Positions 24,048 to 30,434 of a stretch of 64,000 nucleotides of DNA are shown one piece after another (position 1 is the first letter of the stretch; each line of letters starts with the position of its first letter). Source of the stretch: Granulicella sp. 5B5 (GTDB lineage Bacteria; Acidobacteriota; Terriglobia; Terriglobales; Acidobacteriaceae); contig NZ_CP046444.1 in NCBI RefSeq assembly GCF_014083945.1, positions 2,852,001 to 2,916,000 on the forward strand, in the 5' to 3' direction. The notes below the pieces were generated by a model. It saw nothing but the letters and a program-made list of their open reading frames with translations, was not told where the DNA came from and ran no database searches. Position numbers and translations under genes: made by a program.

Positions 24048-24593
24048 ATGCCGCATATTGCACTTCCACCCAATGTTCCTGGAATTGGCGGAGCGTTCGC
24101 GTTTCGCCCGGAGACGGCCAGGCCGATGCGTGAGCTGGCGCATGTCCTGCTGTTTGAGCCTGGCGGCGAGGCGAGCCTGAGCTCGCGCGACCGCGAACTG
24201 ATCGCGAGTTATGTGTCGTCGCGCAACAACTGCTACTTCTGTCAGACCAGCCATGGTGCGGCTGCCGCCAGCCATGCGGGAGGCAGCGCAGAGCTGGTCG
24301 CCGCTGTGTGGCAAGACCCAGAGACCGCGGAGATTTCGCCGAAGTTGAAGGCACTGTTAGCGATCGCGGGGCAGGTGCAGGGCGATGCGAAGGGCGTGAG
24401 TGAAGCGCATATAGAGGCTGCGCGGCTGCAAGGCGCGACGGACCTCGAGATCCACGATACCGTTCTGATCGCGGCCGCCTTCTGTATGTACAACCGCTAT
24501 GTGGATGGCCTGGGCACATGGCAGCCGCGCGACGAGGACATGTATCGGGCGATGGGCAAGCAGCTTGCCGAGCAGGGGTACGCGCGACGTTAG
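24048..24593 (+). CDS. AhpD-like / carboxymuconolactone decarboxylase family protein (2)
   Basis: 181-residue tandem paralogue of the preceding gene, with the same organisation: RELIASYVSSRNNCYFCQTS with CxxC and a following His, SPKLKALLAIAGQVQG, and EIHDTVLIAAAFCMYNRYVD. A 61-base stretch encoding this last block (24447-24507) differs from the first copy at only two bases, far closer than the rest. It ends inside the convergent rnr gene with a 4-base overlap. Confidence 0.85.
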   Translation: MPHIALPPNVPGIGGAFAFRPETARPMRELAHVLLFEPGGEASLSSRDRELIASYVSSRNNCYFCQTSHGAAAASHAGGSAELVAAVWQDPETAEISPKLKALLAIAGQVQGDAKGVSEAHIEAARLQGATDLEIHDTVLIAAAFCMYNRYVDGLGTWQPRDEDMYRAMGKQLAEQGYARR

Positions 24594-27445
24594 CGATTTT
24601 TGCGCTGGCGGGTCTTGGCTTTGCCGGTGAGCTTCTTTTCTTTGACCTTCGCTTTGGCGCGGTCCTTCTTTGAGGCGGTCTTTGGCTTGCCGGGGGCGCC
24701 GGTGTTGGCGACGGGTTCGGTGCCGGGGAGCAGGGCGAACTGGAGGCGGCGCTGCTGGCGGTCGATGCGGTCGAGGATGACTTCGACGCGCTGGCCCAGT
24801 GAGAAGACATGGCCGGTGCGGGAACCGACGATGGTGCGGTCGGTGTCGCGGAAGGTGTAGTGGTCGCCGGTGAGCGAGGTGAGCGGGACGAGGCCTTCGA
24901 TGAAGAGCTCGTTCAGCTCGACGAAGAAGCCGTACTTGGTGCAGGAGAGGATGACGGCGGGGAAGTCTTCGCCGACCTTGTCCTGCATGAACTTGATCTT
25001 CTTCCACTCGATGAGCTCGCGCTCGGCGTCGGCGGCGCGGCGCTCGGTCTGGGAGGTCTCGGCGGCGATGTCGTTGAGCTCTTCGGCGGAGATGGGTTCG
25101 GGCAGCGTTGCCTGGCTCGATGAAGCAGGTCTCTCCACGGCGCTGCGCTTCGGTCGAGATAACACATCATGGGTGGTACTGCTGTTGCCGCTTGCGGCGT
25201 GCTTGCCGCGTTTGCGGTCGAACTCGGTCTGCCAGGGCTGGGGGTCGGTGGAGAGGATGGGGACGCCGTGGGGGTTTGCGCCGCGGCGGAGCATCTCGCG
25301 GGTGAGGCGGTGGACGATGAGGTCGGGGTAGCGGCGGATGGGTGAGGTGAAGTGCGTGTAGCTGGGGCTGGCGAGGGCGAAGTGGCCTTCGTTCTGTTCG
25401 GCGTAGCGGGCCTGCTTTAAGGAGCGCAACATTAAGTAGGCGAGGATGCGCTCTTCCGCTGTGCCGCTGATGCGGCGGACGAGCTTTTGATAGAGCTGCG
25501 GGGTGACGGGGATGGATTCGGGGATCTCGTGTTGTTGAGGGGCGCGGGAGTCGCGACCGCGCGTGCTGCGCTGACGGCTGTCGCGGCGGTCGGACTTCAT
25601 GGTGAGCTTGCGGACGGGCAGGTTGCCGAGGCCGAGGGAGTGGCCGAAGGTGGCGGCGGTCTCTTCGAAGTCGACGATGCGTTTGGGGTCGGGCATCTCG
25701 TGGATGCGGTAGAGGGAGGGGATGGCGAGGGCTTCGAGCCAGTGGGCGACGCACTCGTTGGCGGAGAGCATGAACTCTTCAATGAGGCGATGAGACCAGC
25801 CTCGCTCAGAGCGGATGATGGCCTGCATGTTGCCGTCGGGATCGAATTGGACGATGGGCTCGGGCAGGTCGAAGTCGATGGAGCCGCGACGAACGCGCTT
25901 GGCGTTGAGGCGGAGCGCGAGCTCGAGCATGGCATCGAAGGCGCCGATCAGCTCGGGTTGTTCGAGGGCGATGCGTTCGCGCTCGGCGAGGTCTTCGGCG
26001 GTGGGTTCGGAGGTGATTTTGGTGTGCTGGTTCCAGTGAGACGCGTTGGGGCTGGCGTTGATGCAGTGCTGGACGCTGGTGTAGGTCATGCGGCGGGCGC
26101 TGCGGATGATGCCTTCGGTGACTCGGTAGGTGATGATTTCGCCGCGTGGGTCGACCTCCATGATGCAGCTGAGGACGAGGCGGTCTTCCTTGGGGAGGAG
26201 GCTGCACATGCCGCTGGAGAGCGCGTGCGGGAGCATGGGGACGGCGCGGTCGGGGAAGTAGACGCTGTTACCGCGGACGCGGGCTTCGGTGTCTAGCGCG
26301 GAGCCGGGGCGGACGTACCAGCTAACGTCGGCGATGTGGACCTGGAGCTCGGTGTTGCCGTTGGGGAGCGGGCGGACGAGGACGGCGTCGTCGAAGTCGC
26401 GGGCGGTTTCGCCGTCGATGGTGACGATGGGGAGACCGCGGAAGTCTTCGCGTGCAGCGAGATCTTCTATAGATAGAGTCGCTACGGTTTCCTGAGAGCG
26501 GTCGCTGGCTTCGGCGAGGACGGGCGCGGGGAAGGTGTGAGGGATGTGGTGCTTGCGGATGATGATCTCGACGTCGACACCGAAGGCGTCGGGCGGGCCG
26601 AGGACTTCGAGGATGCGGCCGCGGGCGGGGCGACCGGGCGTAGGGAAGGCGGTGATCTCGACGTCGACGGCGAGGCCTTCGAGGGGGAAGTCGGGATTGG
26701 CGGGCTGCCAGTCACGCTGGGTGTGGCGGGCTTCGTCGCCGAGCATGCGGTGGGGGGTGTCGGCGGCGAGAGGGACGGCCTCGTCGCCGGGTGGGATGCT
26801 GATGGCGCCGGAGATGCGCTCGTCGAGCGGAGTGACGTAGTTGCCGGTGGGGGCTGTGGGTGCCTGATCCGAAGTGCGGCGACCGTGGGGGCGGGCGTAG
26901 TGGAAGATGCCGACGACGGTGGGATTGCGACGGGTAAGAATGCGGGCGATGCGACCACTGCGGCGGCCATCTCGGGCGGGGGGCGCTTCGTCGACGAGGA
27001 CGAGGTCGCCCTGCATGGCGCCGTTGATCTCGTTTGGAGGGATAAAGATATCGCCATCGCGGCCTGCGGAGGGGGAATCGGGACGGACAAAGCCGAATCC
27101 GTCGCGATGAAGATCGAGCCTGCCACTGATGAGACGGTCGCGAGACGACTTTAAAGAGGCCTCCATGCCCTTAAAGGGTTGAAAACGGGGGGTACGTTGG
27201 TCGCTAGGGGATACATCCCTGGGTTTGGGGTCTGACCCGGGAATGGACCAGGCGTCGTCGCCTGCGCGGACGAGTTCACCACGGGCAACCATGCGTGTGA
27301 GCTGCTCGAGGAGTAAGCGCCGCTCGCGCCCGCCACCCAGGCCAAGCTCGCGGATGAGCTGCTTATAGCCGGCGCGATGACCGGCAGAACGGCTGATTCT
27401 ACTGAGTAAATCGCGGTCGGAGCGTGGATAGGGGGTGTGAGCCAT
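24590..27445 (-). CDS. rnr: Ribonuclease R
   Basis: 951-residue processive 3'-5' exoribonuclease of the RNB family. An N-terminal winged helix (LLSRISRSAGHRAGYKQLIR) precedes cold-shock/OB domains to about residue 340. The RNB catalytic domain has DGETARDFDDAV near residue 345, whose aspartates bind the metals, and ends with FTSPIRRYPDLIVHRLTREM. A C-terminal S1 domain (about 828-910) and a Lys/Arg-rich tail follow. Residues about 756-781 (SSTTHDVLSRPKRSAVERPA) are encoded by a dispersed repeat element, absent from the family core. Longer than E. coli RNase R (813). Confidence 0.95.
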   Translation of the reverse strand: MAHTPYPRSDRDLLSRISRSAGHRAGYKQLIRELGLGGGRERRLLLEQLTRMVARGELVRAGDDAWSIPGSDPKPRDVSPSDQRTPRFQPFKGMEASLKSSRDRLISGRLDLHRDGFGFVRPDSPSAGRDGDIFIPPNEINGAMQGDLVLVDEAPPARDGRRSGRIARILTRRNPTVVGIFHYARPHGRRTSDQAPTAPTGNYVTPLDERISGAISIPPGDEAVPLAADTPHRMLGDEARHTQRDWQPANPDFPLEGLAVDVEITAFPTPGRPARGRILEVLGPPDAFGVDVEIIIRKHHIPHTFPAPVLAEASDRSQETVATLSIEDLAAREDFRGLPIVTIDGETARDFDDAVLVRPLPNGNTELQVHIADVSWYVRPGSALDTEARVRGNSVYFPDRAVPMLPHALSSGMCSLLPKEDRLVLSCIMEVDPRGEIITYRVTEGIIRSARRMTYTSVQHCINASPNASHWNQHTKITSEPTAEDLAERERIALEQPELIGAFDAMLELALRLNAKRVRRGSIDFDLPEPIVQFDPDGNMQAIIRSERGWSHRLIEEFMLSANECVAHWLEALAIPSLYRIHEMPDPKRIVDFEETAATFGHSLGLGNLPVRKLTMKSDRRDSRQRSTRGRDSRAPQQHEIPESIPVTPQLYQKLVRRISGTAEERILAYLMLRSLKQARYAEQNEGHFALASPSYTHFTSPIRRYPDLIVHRLTREMLRRGANPHGVPILSTDPQPWQTEFDRKRGKHAASGNSSTTHDVLSRPKRSAVERPASSSQATLPEPISAEELNDIAAETSQTERRAADAERELIEWKKIKFMQDKVGEDFPAVILSCTKYGFFVELNELFIEGLVPLTSLTGDHYTFRDTDRTIVGSRTGHVFSLGQRVEVILDRIDRQQRRLQFALLPGTEPVANTGAPGKPKTASKKDRAKAKVKEKKLTGKAKTRQRKNR
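25113..25180. repeat. Family D repeat inside rnr, in frame
   Basis: GCAGGTCTCTCC then GCGCTGCGCTTCGGTCGAG and ATAACACATCATGGGTGGTA match the flanks of the intergenic elements at 59304-59365 and 4000-4050, without their inner GCATCGC palindrome. The insertion keeps the rnr frame open and lies in a linker between the RNB and S1 domains. Confidence 0.65.
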
Positions 27446-27544
27446 CTATGTATTCGCCTTTGCTTGAGGATACGCGGAGCTGAGACGAAGCGTGCAGGAG
27501 GTGCGGGAAGGATGGCTTACCGATCAATAAGTACGCCTGAAACG

Positions 27545-27727
27545 AAGTTACCAAAAGCTCTAGTGGTGGTTCTAAGCGGAAAGTTACCGTCATGACATAG
27601 GTAATGGTTACGGAATAGACGATCCGTATCCTCTTCTGGCATATGGACTTAGCGCGGTGCTGCCGATAGCTTGATGACAGCTAAACAACACGGCGAAAGA
27701 TTCTGAACTACCCAAATTGAAGTTACC
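27545..27727 (+). promoter_or_regulatory. Three AAGTTACC boxes upstream of the small exported peptide
   Basis: Identical octamers at 27545-27552, 27581-27588 and 27720-27727 in the 300-base gap between rnr and the peptide gene. The gap is lower in GC than its surroundings and has no gene. The last box ends 4 bases before the ribosome site, so these may be operators; no protein is known. Confidence 0.35.
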
Positions 27728-27745
27728 TGACAAGGAGAAATCATC

Positions 27746-27922
27746 ATGAAGAACAATATCGTCCGCCTTTTCGTCCTGTCCCTTACTGTTGCCGGCTTCG
27801 GTGCCGCTTCGGTTGCCGCCCATGCCCGCACGACGAACAAGGCTTCGGTTGCCCCGATGGGCATCGTAGGTTCGCAGTCGCTCTGCGCCCCCAGCGATCC
27901 CTCAGCCTGCGGCATGCAGTAA
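27746..27922 (+). CDS. Small exported peptide, 58 residues
   Basis: ATG 27746 lies 8 bases after a strong AAGGAG (27732-27737). The product has a clear signal peptide (MKNNIVRLFVLSLTVAGFGA then ASVAAHA). The mature part is about 30 residues and ends LCAPSDPSACGMQ, with two cysteines eight residues apart. No family is recognised. It lies upstream of the seven-helix protein on the same strand, with two hairpins between them, so the two may form one regulated unit. It could be a secreted signal, a processed peptide or a small periplasmic partner; none of these is shown by sequence. Confidence 0.7.
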   Translation: MKNNIVRLFVLSLTVAGFGAASVAAHARTTNKASVAPMGIVGSQSLCAPSDPSACGMQ

Positions 27923-27931
27923 GAAAAATGG

Positions 27932-28016
27932 CGGTCTGGGGTGAGACCGAACCATAAAAATATCTTTGTGCTCTGTTGATTCTCCGGGTTCAGCCTCTTA
28001 TGATCGAGGCTGAACC
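27932..28016 (+). promoter_or_regulatory. Two hairpins between peptide and 7TM genes
   Basis: First hairpin CGGTCT-GGGGTG-AGACCG (27932-27949). Second, perfect 11-bp stem GGTTCAGCCTC with an 8-base loop and GAGGCTGAACC (27987-28016), ending 7 bases before the GGGGGGA ribosome site of the next gene. They could attenuate read-through or stabilise the upstream message. Confidence 0.55.
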
Positions 28017-28035
28017 TTCCCTGGGGGGATTCGTG

Positions 28036-28986
28036 ATGAGCACGATAGCGCTTCTGAAATACGCAGACTTTGTCGTGATAATCGTGACCGTTTGCGCTTT
28101 GGTCGTGATGTGGCGTAAATCGCTGGTCACCAGGTTCAAGGCGCTGGCACTCTACTTAGTTTCCATCGTCGTCATCGAATCGATTCAGATTCCTCTCCTC
28201 TTCTTTCGCAGATCAATGGGAATTGACCTGCACGTTGCGTACAAGGTGTTTTTCTATAGCAACGAAGTTCTTGCTGTGATCCAGGCTGTGTTGATGGTTG
28301 CGATCATCTACAGCATCTTTCAGAATGCCATGAGGCCGTTGAAGGGCTTGCAGCGCATGGGAACCCTGGTGTTCAAGTGGGTTGCGGCGGTATCGGCTCT
28401 TCTTGCAGGTGTGCTGGCCCTGGGGCCGCATGTGTTCTCGACGGGCTTTGCTTTGACGATTGCCGTCACCACCGTGATTGAACGTGCGCAGGAAGGGATC
28501 AATGTGCTGACCCTCTGCCTGCTGCTGTTTGTGTGTCTCGCGATCAAGCCGCTGGGATTGACGTTCCGTAGCCATGTGTTCGGTGTTGCGCTCGGACTGG
28601 GGATTATCTCGACGACAGAACTGGTGCAGGCGGCGTGGTTCTGGACGAGTGGAGCCCATTCGGTCTACTCGCCGATCTACCTGTTTGGCACGATCGGCTA
28701 CATTGTGGCGATGGGTACGTGGGGTGTGTACCTGGTGATTCCAGAGCCGGAGCGGAGGATGATTCTGCTGCCGACGACGTCGCCGTTCTTTCACTGGAAC
28801 CGCATCTCGGAGGCGCTGGGTGATGCTCCCGGCCATGTGGCGATCGGTTTCAAGCCGAGCATGATCTCGCCGACTGAGGTGAAGGTGATGACGGCCATGA
28901 GCAGAGCTGCGCGGGAGCGCGAGGCTGCTTCGGTAGCAGCGGAGTCCAAGGCACAGGCTGAGATGGATTCGATCGCAGTTTCGTAA
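28036..28986 (+). CDS. Seven-helix membrane protein of unknown function
   Basis: 316 residues with seven hydrophobic helices between about residues 7 and 245 (for example FVVIIVTVCALVVMW, YLVSIVVIESIQIPLLFF and YLFGTIGYIVAMGTWGVYLV). A cytosolic C-terminal tail of about 70 residues is rich in Ala, Glu and Arg (MSRAAREREAASVAAESKAQ) and may coil. ATG 28036 follows GGGGGGA by 7 bases; an earlier in-frame start at 27976 would place the hairpin inside the gene. Receptor-like topology beside a secreted peptide gene is suggestive, but I know no matching characterised family. Confidence 0.72.
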   Translation: MSTIALLKYADFVVIIVTVCALVVMWRKSLVTRFKALALYLVSIVVIESIQIPLLFFRRSMGIDLHVAYKVFFYSNEVLAVIQAVLMVAIIYSIFQNAMRPLKGLQRMGTLVFKWVAAVSALLAGVLALGPHVFSTGFALTIAVTTVIERAQEGINVLTLCLLLFVCLAIKPLGLTFRSHVFGVALGLGIISTTELVQAAWFWTSGAHSVYSPIYLFGTIGYIVAMGTWGVYLVIPEPERRMILLPTTSPFFHWNRISEALGDAPGHVAIGFKPSMISPTEVKVMTAMSRAAREREAASVAAESKAQAEMDSIAVS

Positions 28987-29014
28987 GGTCAAACACTAAG
29001 TTAGTACTTCAGAG

Positions 29015-29042
29015 CGAGCAGGGCGAATGATCGCCCTGCTCG
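29015..29042 (+). terminator. Rho-independent terminator after the 7TM gene
   Basis: Perfect 12-bp stem CGAGCAGGGCGA, loop ATGA, and TCGCCCTGCTCG, followed by TTGTAGTTT. Confidence 0.85.
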
Positions 29043-29093
29043 TTGTAGTTTGAGGTGGGTTGTGTTCGAGAGGGTGAGGAACAGGATGCTGCG

Positions 29094-30434
29094 ATGGAGC
29101 CGGTAACGCATGTGCTGACAGGAGCCTGTCTTGCGCGGGCCGGTTTCAATCGGCGGGCGGCGTATGCGACGCTGACGATGGCGATTGCGGCGGAGATGCC
29201 GGACATCGATACGCTGTGGAGCCTGCGTGGGCCGGTGGAAGGGTTTGCGCACCATCGGGGGATTACGCATACGTTTGTGGGGCTGCCGTTTGAGGCGGCG
29301 GCGCTGGTGGGTGCGGTGTACCTGCTGCATCGGTGGCGCGTGGCGCGGGCGAAACGAGTGCGGATCGGGCAGAAGTTTTCGGCGAAGCCGCTGACGAAGG
29401 CCCCGGTGCGGTGGTGGGCGTTGTATGGGTGCGCACTGGTGGCGCTGTTGAGCCATCTGCTGCTGGACTATACGAACAACTATGGGCTGCGGCCGTTTTA
29501 TCCGTTCAATACGCACTGGTATGCGGCGTCGATTGTGTTCATCTTCGATCCGGTGATGTTTGGTCTGCTGCTGGTGGCGCTGGCTGTGCCGTCGCTGTTT
29601 GGGCTGGTGAGCGCGGAGGTCGGGGCGAAACGCCCGGTGTTCCGCGGGCGCGGATGGGCGATCGCGGCGCTGCTGTGCGTGCTGGGATGGTGGACGCTGC
29701 GGTATATGGAACGGCAGCGGGCGGTGGAGATCGCGATGTTGCAGAGCTATGAGCAGCAACAGGCGCCGGTCGCTATGCCGGTGCCGAGTCCGAGCGCTCC
29801 TGCGCCAGAGAGTTCGCCGGATGCTTCGGGTAGAGAGGCGGGGACGCAGACGGCGGCGGATGGGGCTATGGGCGAAAGAACGGCGGCTGTGGTGTCCGTG
29901 CCGCCGGCACAGCAACAGAGCGAATTGGTGCAGCCGCCGCCGGTGCTGTTGACGGTGCAGCGGGTTGAGGCGAGCCCGGAGCCGGTGAACCCGTTTCACT
30001 GGGCGGTCGTGATGGACTTTGGGCCGCTGTATCAGCTGGCGACGATCGAGGCGCGGTCCGGGACCGTGCTGATGAGCGAGGTGACGTATCCGAAGCCACC
30101 GAGCGATGCGGCGATTCGGGCGGCAGAGGCTAGTGCGTTGGGGCGCGCGTATCTGGACTGGTCGGCGATGCCGGTGATTACCGAAGATGAGCCGACGGTG
30201 GGTGGTGCGGCGTCTTCGACCAGGAAGGTGACGTTTCGCGATCCGCGGTTTATGGGCAGCGTGTCCTGGCTGGAGCGGTCTGGCAGGACGCCGTTGACCG
30301 CTGAGGTGAAGGTGAATGCCGCGGGGCGCGTGGTGGAGGAGACGATGGACGGTCGCGTGGAGACGCGGCGGCCAATCCTGATGCCGGATGTGAGCCGCTT
30401 TCGTTGGAGCGACTTCGGCTTGAGCCGGAAGTAA
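29094..30434 (+). CDS. YdjM-type metal-dependent hydrolase family membrane protein
   Basis: 446 residues. The N-terminal half matches the LexA-regulated YdjM-like inner-membrane family: MEPVTHVLTGACLARAGF, EMPDIDTLW, HHRGITHT and LSHLLLDYTNNYG, with four or five helices and conserved His/Asp that suggest a metal site. Residues about 220-305 are a Pro/Gln/Ser-rich linker. A C-terminal domain (NPFHWAVVMDFGPLYQLATI onward) is added. The linker and extra domain make it longer than E. coli YdjM (about 196). ATG 29094 follows AGGA. The enzymatic role is unproven in the family. Confidence 0.8.
   Translation: MEPVTHVLTGACLARAGFNRRAAYATLTMAIAAEMPDIDTLWSLRGPVEGFAHHRGITHTFVGLPFEAAALVGAVYLLHRWRVARAKRVRIGQKFSAKPLTKAPVRWWALYGCALVALLSHLLLDYTNNYGLRPFYPFNTHWYAASIVFIFDPVMFGLLLVALAVPSLFGLVSAEVGAKRPVFRGRGWAIAALLCVLGWWTLRYMERQRAVEIAMLQSYEQQQAPVAMPVPSPSAPAPESSPDASGREAGTQTAADGAMGERTAAVVSVPPAQQQSELVQPPPVLLTVQRVEASPEPVNPFHWAVVMDFGPLYQLATIEARSGTVLMSEVTYPKPPSDAAIRAAEASALGRAYLDWSAMPVITEDEPTVGGAASSTRKVTFRDPRFMGSVSWLERSGRTPLTAEVKVNAAGRVVEETMDGRVETRRPILMPDVSRFRWSDFGLSRK

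Follow-up and report, generated by a model that had tools for sequence, protein, structure and literature searches.

The window, by which we mean the whole 64-kb stretch of DNA that was analysed, comes from the genome of Granulicella sp. 5B5, a single contig of 3.93 Mb. Between the divergent rnr gene and a YdjM-family gene, it carries a short peptide gene followed by a gene for a seven-helix membrane protein (7TM), and the features of this locus are collected in Table 1. An earlier note on this DNA had described a predicted exported peptide of 58 residues with a ribosome site, two hairpins and a seven-helix protein with a charged cytosolic tail, and all of these were present. The lower GC content that it had reported was also seen, with 52-53% over positions 27500-28499 compared with 59-71% in the flanking 500-base blocks (61-71% in the preceding and 59-66% in the following ones). 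The terminator said to close the unit was not supported: the perfect 12-bp stem (29015-29026/29031-29042) is real, but its T run is poor and it is absent from the terminator scan. A search of positions 27400-29100 against Rfam gave nine matches, all with E of at least 0.5 and far under the gathering scores.

Table 1. Features of the peptide-7TM locus of Granulicella sp. 5B5, in coordinates of the window
Feature	Position	Strand	Description
rnr	24590-27445	-	recognised by eye
Operator-like site TGACATAGGTAATGGTTACG	27593-27612	+	family consensus TTACN4GTAA, then TTAC-like half
Putative promoter TGGACT (27644-27649), 17 nt, TAGCTT (27667-27672)	27644-27672	+	putative role
AAGGAG, peptide-gene ribosome site	27732-27737	+	sequence
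Peptide ORF	27746-27922	+	58 aa; signal sequence, then ...SQSLCAPSDPSACGMQ
First intergenic hairpin	about 27928-27955	+	minimum-energy fold
Second hairpin, contains 7TM ribosome site	27978-28031	+	z -3.1 at the 5B5 locus
7TM ORF	28036-28986	+	316 aa, cytosolic tail; AlphaFold2 model mb73c45c57367, alignment A2, loop charges
12-bp inverted repeat 3' of 7TM gene, possible 3' end	29015-29042	+	weak T run

The peptide and the seven-helix protein

Neither product matched a family in Pfam or NCBIfam, in agreement with the earlier statement that no characterised family is known for either one. For the 5B5 peptide, no match was found in NCBIfam, PHROGs or PADLOC, and one Pfam match lay below the cut-off. 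Related peptides were compared in alignment A1, which holds 51 sequences and was built from ORFs located beside 7TM genes. The seed peptides were mostly picked by a pattern with two cysteines; this pattern did not find the 5B5 peptide or its two nearest relatives, which lack P-x-P, and wrong ORFs that it picked (e.g., L054 and L057) were left out of the alignment. NCBIfam matches of the 51 peptides were sporadic (best E 4.5e-4, each family in at most five peptides) and were judged to be chance; one PHROG match (E 0.075, for one relative's peptide) and no PADLOC family were found. Cys 47 is invariant in A1, and M1, K2, R7, P43, P45, P49 and Cys 55 occur in at least 90% of the sequences; the mature region is variable among the 51 peptides. 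Most peptides share the core P-x-P-x-C-x-P..C, of which the 5B5 peptide, with Ser instead of Pro at 43 and 45, keeps only C-x-P..C, and this family core around the two cysteines agrees with the attention that the earlier note had drawn to the CAPSDPSAC end. Two cysteines were present in 88 of 89 peptides, at a variable spacing, and an AxA-like site was present in 86 of the 89 (lenient pattern, no control). Coding constraint on the peptide frame, which had been named beforehand as a test, was observed: the dN/dS values of the 5B5 peptide against its two nearest relatives were 0.18/0.71 and 0.14/1.07, and the median ratio was 0.42 over 103 genus pairs, many of them with high dS.

The 7TM protein was modelled with AlphaFold2 using 58 relatives (mean pLDDT 87.9, pTM 0.79). 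The model contains seven long membrane helices, a short helix at residues 250-260 and a C-terminal helix at residues 279-315, and no known domain is found in the predicted tail of about 80 residues. Lys and Arg are abundant in loops 1 and 5 and in the tail but not in loops 2, 4 and 6, and loop 3, with little charge (0.72 K+R compared with 0.90 in loop 2), gives no information on orientation. Because of the loop charges taken together, the N terminus is predicted to lie outside and the C terminus inside, and the model favours this orientation with a GPCR/rhodopsin-like order of helices. The best fold matches were GPCRs and rhodopsins, with Foldseek E values of 0.05 at best and 0.03 for a second model, which are not significant; VIA-align gave Z up to 13.7 with an rmsd of 4.0 over 198 residues, values that generic helical bundles also reach. 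By sequence, the 5B5 protein had no Pfam family at E <= 10 and no match in NCBIfam, PHROGs or PADLOC. When the 58 relatives were compared with Pfam, 35 families appeared at E <= 1, sporadically (best 9e-4, each in at most three members), and no GPCR family was among the 25 listed of those 35. The best PDB sequence matches of the 5B5 protein were protein kinases at E >= 0.013 and were judged to be chance. No Lys occupies an invariant or nearly invariant column of the 58 sequences, and a retinal-binding lysine in helix 7, as in microbial rhodopsins, is thus not conserved. A read-through fusion of the peptide and 7TM protein of the close relative L031, modelled without a control, gave a mean pLDDT of 82 for peptide residues 51-60, the cysteine-loop end, with 65 before and 51 after them; this is no more than suggestive of a defined position for that end.

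In alignment A2 (58 sequences), the nearly invariant residues are Trp, Phe, Tyr, Gly and Asn, among them the cytosolic Trp-Asn at residues 254-255 of the 5B5 protein. The earlier note had interpreted the locus as a two-gene unit whose peptide is either sensed by the 7TM protein or matures with it; the unit stood, but maturation became less likely because these residues form no obvious catalytic set. Adjacent genes for a peptide and a membrane protein are typical of maturation systems, and the 7TM protein might accordingly be a transporter or intramembrane enzyme that matures, exports or degrades a peptide with another target. We consider this quite improbable, since besides the absence of obvious catalytic residues among the conserved ones, the peptide carries its own signal sequence and the 7TM protein has no Pfam or NCBIfam family.

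Distribution, pairing and duplication of the two genes

Relatives of the 7TM protein were found in 136 of 150 Acidobacteriaceae genomes and in 104 of the 110 of good quality. Among the fetched loci, the nearest named species is Granulicella paludicola (L032), with a 7TM protein 68% identical to that of 5B5, and the protein of the Acidobacteriaceae isolate L031 is 71% identical. In a sample of the phylum, the 7TM profile had a match in 30 of 31 genomes of the family and in 4 of the 266 others (E 3e-6 to 4e-4), a count that treats unlisted negatives as lying outside the family, as suggested by the order of the listing. The 7TM superfamily is rare outside Acidobacteriaceae (9 of 266 genomes, E 5e-15 to 4e-4); the nine loci outside the family were read, and P-x-P-x-C-like ORFs lie upstream in L252 and L253. 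By eye, an apparent second small membrane-protein ORF was seen about 900-1000 nt after the 7TM start in L250, L251, L252, L255 and L256, all outside the family. In L248, likewise outside the family, a short ORF about 360 nt before the 7TM gene has three DGMTGIPP-like repeats and no clear signal sequence.

Among the first 32 loci, 26 had a predicted exported ORF of 50-80 aa starting about 240-360 nt before the 7TM gene. A peptide was present on closer look in two more (L009 and L013), two were cut by the contig end (L007 and L021), and no peptide ORF was found in L022 and L029. When 150 whole genomes were searched with the peptide profile, 93 hits reached E <= 1e-4, many of them the rows of A1 itself, and 89 of the 93 adjoin a 7TM gene on the same strand, the other 4 being cut by contig ends; part of this adjacency arises by construction because A1 was drawn from ORFs beside 7TM genes. 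By position, a listed 7TM gene follows 76 hits and precedes 6, another 6 lie beside additional 7TM genes and 5 fall otherwise: the hit in G120 adjoins a 7TM gene (L143), the contigs of G094 and G130 break off within the peptide or right after it, and the last two come from the edge of a single 4.6-kb contig of G097. There is no clear exception to the adjacency among the 93 hits. The gap between the two genes is 60-140 nt in 53 of 55 loci, and together with the neighbourhood in relatives this strongly supports the two-gene unit proposed earlier.

Within the genus, the 7TM gene was found in 22 of 28 genomes, and the peptide was present in all 17 newly read loci with a tailed 7TM gene and enough upstream sequence. 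Of the other newly read genus loci, three begin at a contig edge and one, L183, is a tailless paralog without a peptide. The good genomes G428, G429 and G435 had no tailed 7TM gene and no convincing peptide, and in G439 the contig ends inside the peptide. No peptide was detectable at some 7TM relatives, e.g., L022, L034, L041, L052, L065, L069, L070 and L087. At the genome level, the peptide occurred in 74 of 137 genomes with a 7TM gene and in none of 13 without (p = 1.4e-4), a test weaker than it appears because the profile finds a 7TM gene, mostly tailless, in 6 of those 13. Some loci were counted twice from two collections (the peptides of L031/L163 and of L032/L164 are identical).

A small exported cysteine peptide with a variable mature region beside a membrane protein might also be a bacteriocin-like toxin with the 7TM protein conferring immunity. 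The pair is near-core in the family and not patchy, the peptide has a conserved core and its own conserved leader site (described below), and the databases offered no PADLOC family and only the PHROG match mentioned above, so that this explanation appears very unlikely.

The peptide gene is repeated in tandem in several relatives, with six copies in L005, three in L006 and L178, and at least two in L008 and L030. One clade has the order swapped: in its 14 loci the peptide gene lies 156-494 nt behind the 7TM gene, and a G-x-P-x-P-like core is kept. In three genomes with two 7TM types, the peptides are 64-90% alike within a type across genomes and 43-55% alike between types inside one genome; as judged from the sequences, the peptides in these genomes follow receptor type and not genome. 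Of 22 distant 7TM paralogs, mostly tailless, 19 are preceded by a small exported ORF, compared with 14 of 93 control ORFs (Fisher p = 3e-10), the counted ORF of L161 looking spurious by eye. Many of these ORFs have a G-x-P-x-P-like core, with cysteines optional, and the core is repeated internally in the peptides of L153, L213, L215 and L142. Genome G050 has eight 7TM genes, seven of them with a peptide ORF. The pair has been kept together across most of Acidobacteriaceae, and it has been duplicated, diversified and re-ordered as a pair. Two tandem 7TM genes behind a single peptide gene were observed in L023, L026, L028/L085 and L033, the second being short and tailless in L023, L026 and L085.

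Strict pairing suits a subunit equally well. MgrB has a short N-terminal K/R stretch plus a hydrophobic segment, and the peptides resemble it in their N-terminal K/R, hydrophobic segment and two extracytoplasmic cysteines. The peptide could thus act on the 7TM protein as a small membrane-anchored subunit or modulator, with no diffusible signal: its hydrophobic N terminus would stay in the membrane, and its cysteine loop would regulate or stabilise the 7TM protein in the periplasm. We regard this as unlikely. Nearly all peptides have an AxA-like cleavage site by the lenient pattern, tandem copies and repeated cores are unusual for a stoichiometric subunit, and the partner of MgrB is a sensor kinase, whereas the 7TM protein has no kinase domain.

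An XRE-type regulator (domain HTH_3 or HTH_31) adjoins 14 of 39 tailless and none of 61 tailed 7TM genes, counted where at least 1.4 kb was available on each side and with a profile trained on loci later counted. Regulators of about 245-270 aa were seen beside the tailless gene in L064, L090, L154-L157, L159 and L183, and likewise in L210, L213, L215, L229, L230 and L253; the order is regulator-peptide-7TM in several XRE loci. With one XRE regulator as the query, no homologue was found in 11 of 20 genomes, 5B5 among them, and in G130 and G047 the homologue found by whole-genome search was not placed beside a 7TM gene. The 7TM protein itself has no effector domain, and no downstream partner is known for the tailed type. 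These data suggest that some members of the family signal to transcription, and the tailed ones would act through another partner.

Leader site and hairpin around the peptide gene

An exact TTACN3-5GTAA was found in 33 of 89 peptide leaders compared with 1.4 in shuffled sequences, and the TTACN4GTAA site lies mostly 125-165 nt before the peptide start in relatives. The 5B5 copy reads TGACN4GTAA and is therefore outside the 33. An RGACTT box follows the TTACN4GTAA site by 39-41 nt at 18 matched peptide loci and by 40 nt in 5B5, and in the genus a TATGTT-like box follows 16-17 nt after the RGACTT box. The consensus promoter scan of the 5B5 locus does not list the putative promoter of Table 1. 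In 24 whole genomes, chosen because they carry the pair, the operator pattern matched 22 places in 18 genomes; 18 of these places lie before a peptide gene by coordinates, a 19th is the same leader of G140 read on the opposite strand, and three lie elsewhere. Because a backward control pattern matched 13 times, it is the position of the site that carries information and not the number of matches. The pattern derived from TGACATAGGTAATGGTTACG has its only match in the 5B5 genome at the tabulated site. A leader weight matrix was trained and scored on the same leaders. A conserved control region thus precedes the peptide gene, and we infer that the TTACN4GTAA site and the RGACTT and TATGTT-like boxes represent an operator and a promoter. 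A sigma-70-like match (TTGATT-17-TATGAT, 27976-28004) overlaps the hairpin before the 7TM gene, and separate transcription of the 7TM gene is therefore possible.

To compare the hairpins at 7TM starts, folding energy was measured against shuffled sequences and against 59 control ORFs, with start codons chosen by script. At 85 of 94 loci, at least 6 of the 11 ribosome-site nucleotides of the 7TM gene lie in an upstream stem (median z -2.4). The corresponding counts were 31 among 59 control ORFs (median z 0.04) and 42 among 92 peptide starts, and the z values of 7TM and control ORFs differed with a Mann-Whitney p of 1e-13. An earlier comparison of pairing with 17 ORFs of the window gave p = 0.03, and shuffles with a fixed ribosome site, a weak test, gave 0.60 for the 7TM gene compared with 0.48, with 9 of 74 loci at p <= 0.05. 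Stem sequences differ between relatives. The hairpin is less clear where a tailless 7TM gene has the peptide before it (15 of 20 loci, median z -1.3), and it is mostly missing where the peptide lies downstream of the 7TM gene (3 of 16, median z 0.03). It may set the ratio of receptor to peptide or couple their translation.

In SecM, VemP and MifM, an exported arrest ORF precedes a membrane-related gene whose ribosome site is covered by a hairpin. The peptide ORF could similarly be an export-monitoring arrest or leader peptide whose translation opens the hairpin and so regulates the 7TM gene in cis: it is a short exported ORF with a proline-rich C terminus, the hairpin behind it buries the ribosome site of a membrane protein, and the hairpin accompanies upstream and not downstream peptides. 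The pairing arm, however, starts a median of 52 nt and a minimum of 16 nt after the peptide stop (85 loci; alternative folds may exist), which weakens the explanation: a ribosome that stalls at the end of the peptide would not reach the arm, and the distance from the stop is too large for direct melting. The clade with reversed order keeps the core, only the last copy of a tandem array could act in this way, and the cysteine spacing is variable. We therefore think an arrest peptide rather improbable.

A candidate peptide-receptor module and known systems

The explanation that we prefer is a module of a cognate peptide ligand and its 7TM receptor. The pairing was observed directly; that the peptide would bind the 7TM protein and signal through it we judge to have slightly better than an even chance. 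That the peptide is sensed by the 7TM protein explains the data best because of the co-diversification, the tandem copies, the core repeats and the receptor-like topology. The 58-aa product would be exported via its own signal sequence and then processed to a short core from its C terminus, which is rich in proline in most relatives and which a disulfide probably closes. The 7TM protein, N-out/C-in in the inner membrane, would bind this core on its outer face, and binding would alter the state of its cytosolic tail; where paralogs have no tail, the output may pass to a neighbouring XRE-type regulator. The dedicated upstream operator and promoter, to judge by their conservation, would set expression, and the hairpin over the 7TM ribosome site would hold receptor synthesis low relative to the peptide. 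Because the cell is Gram-negative, a peptide exported through Sec may remain in the periplasm, and cell-to-cell signalling is therefore hypothetical. More tentatively, and with somewhat less than an even chance in our estimate, Acidobacteriota may have an extensive, as yet undescribed family of receptors for peptides, GPCR-like in topology, with each receptor genetically linked to an exported ligand of its own; duplication of the pair would have led to many paralogs in some genomes, as in G050, and a linked XRE regulator would provide the output in part of the family.

If the 7TM protein has the peptide as its ligand, a genetically encoded peptide-receptor system without a Pfam or NCBIfam family would exist in a phylum abundant in soil, receptors with seven helices that recognise exported peptides would not be confined to eukaryotes, and a Gram-negative phylum would have peptide-hormone-like signalling. 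Most 7TM paralogs adjoin a candidate ligand, and ligand specificity is therefore directly testable from sequence. Should the signalling interpretation fail, there is still a peptide-7TM unit that is conserved and co-duplicated, has a conserved leader site and lacks known relatives, and this near-core two-gene unit with its translational hairpin represents unstudied acidobacterial biology.

In the open-access literature returned by the searches, taken as titles, abstract openings and some passages, no description of this peptide-7TM pair was found; AHL-type quorum sensing is mentioned for Acidobacteria in a passage of one article (PMC7661733). In the quorum-sensing systems ComQXPA and RRNPP, a propeptide gene adjoins the gene of its cognate receptor, according to parts of two articles (PMC4008528, PMC10075063). 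Unlike the 5B5 7TM protein, the receptors of agr, ComQXPA and RRNPP are histidine kinases or cytosolic receptors, typically Gram-positive, and the two 5B5 proteins had no family match to the components of these systems. In agr, too, the propeptide gene lies beside the cognate receptor gene; neither 5B5 protein had a Pfam or NCBIfam match to an AgrB-like peptidase or a histidine-kinase receptor of the agr type, and the flanking genes are rnr and the YdjM-family gene. The bacterial seven-helix receptors 7TMR-DISM carry a periplasmic DISMED domain and/or cytosolic kinase, GGDEF, EAL or PAS modules, as an excerpt of one article states (PMC6107284), whereas the 5B5 protein has neither DISMED nor a signalling module and no Pfam match. 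The two periplasmic cysteines of MgrB are needed to inhibit PhoQ, as given in part of another article (PMC8404706); the peptides share two cysteines (88 of 89) in a predicted extracytoplasmic location, whereas PhoQ is a kinase and the adjacent protein here has no kinase domain.

Compared with GPCRs, the 5B5 7TM protein has seven helices in the N-out/C-in orientation by prediction, and it differs in having no sequence family match, no significant Foldseek match and a different cytosolic tail; heterotrimeric G proteins of the GPCR kind are not known from bacteria. The yeast receptor Ste2 is a seven-helix receptor whose exported peptide ligand, alpha-factor, is encoded with repeated copies. Eukaryotic peptide GPCRs of this type resemble the 5B5 pair in their seven helices, their N-out/C-in orientation and their cognate exported peptides in repeated copies.
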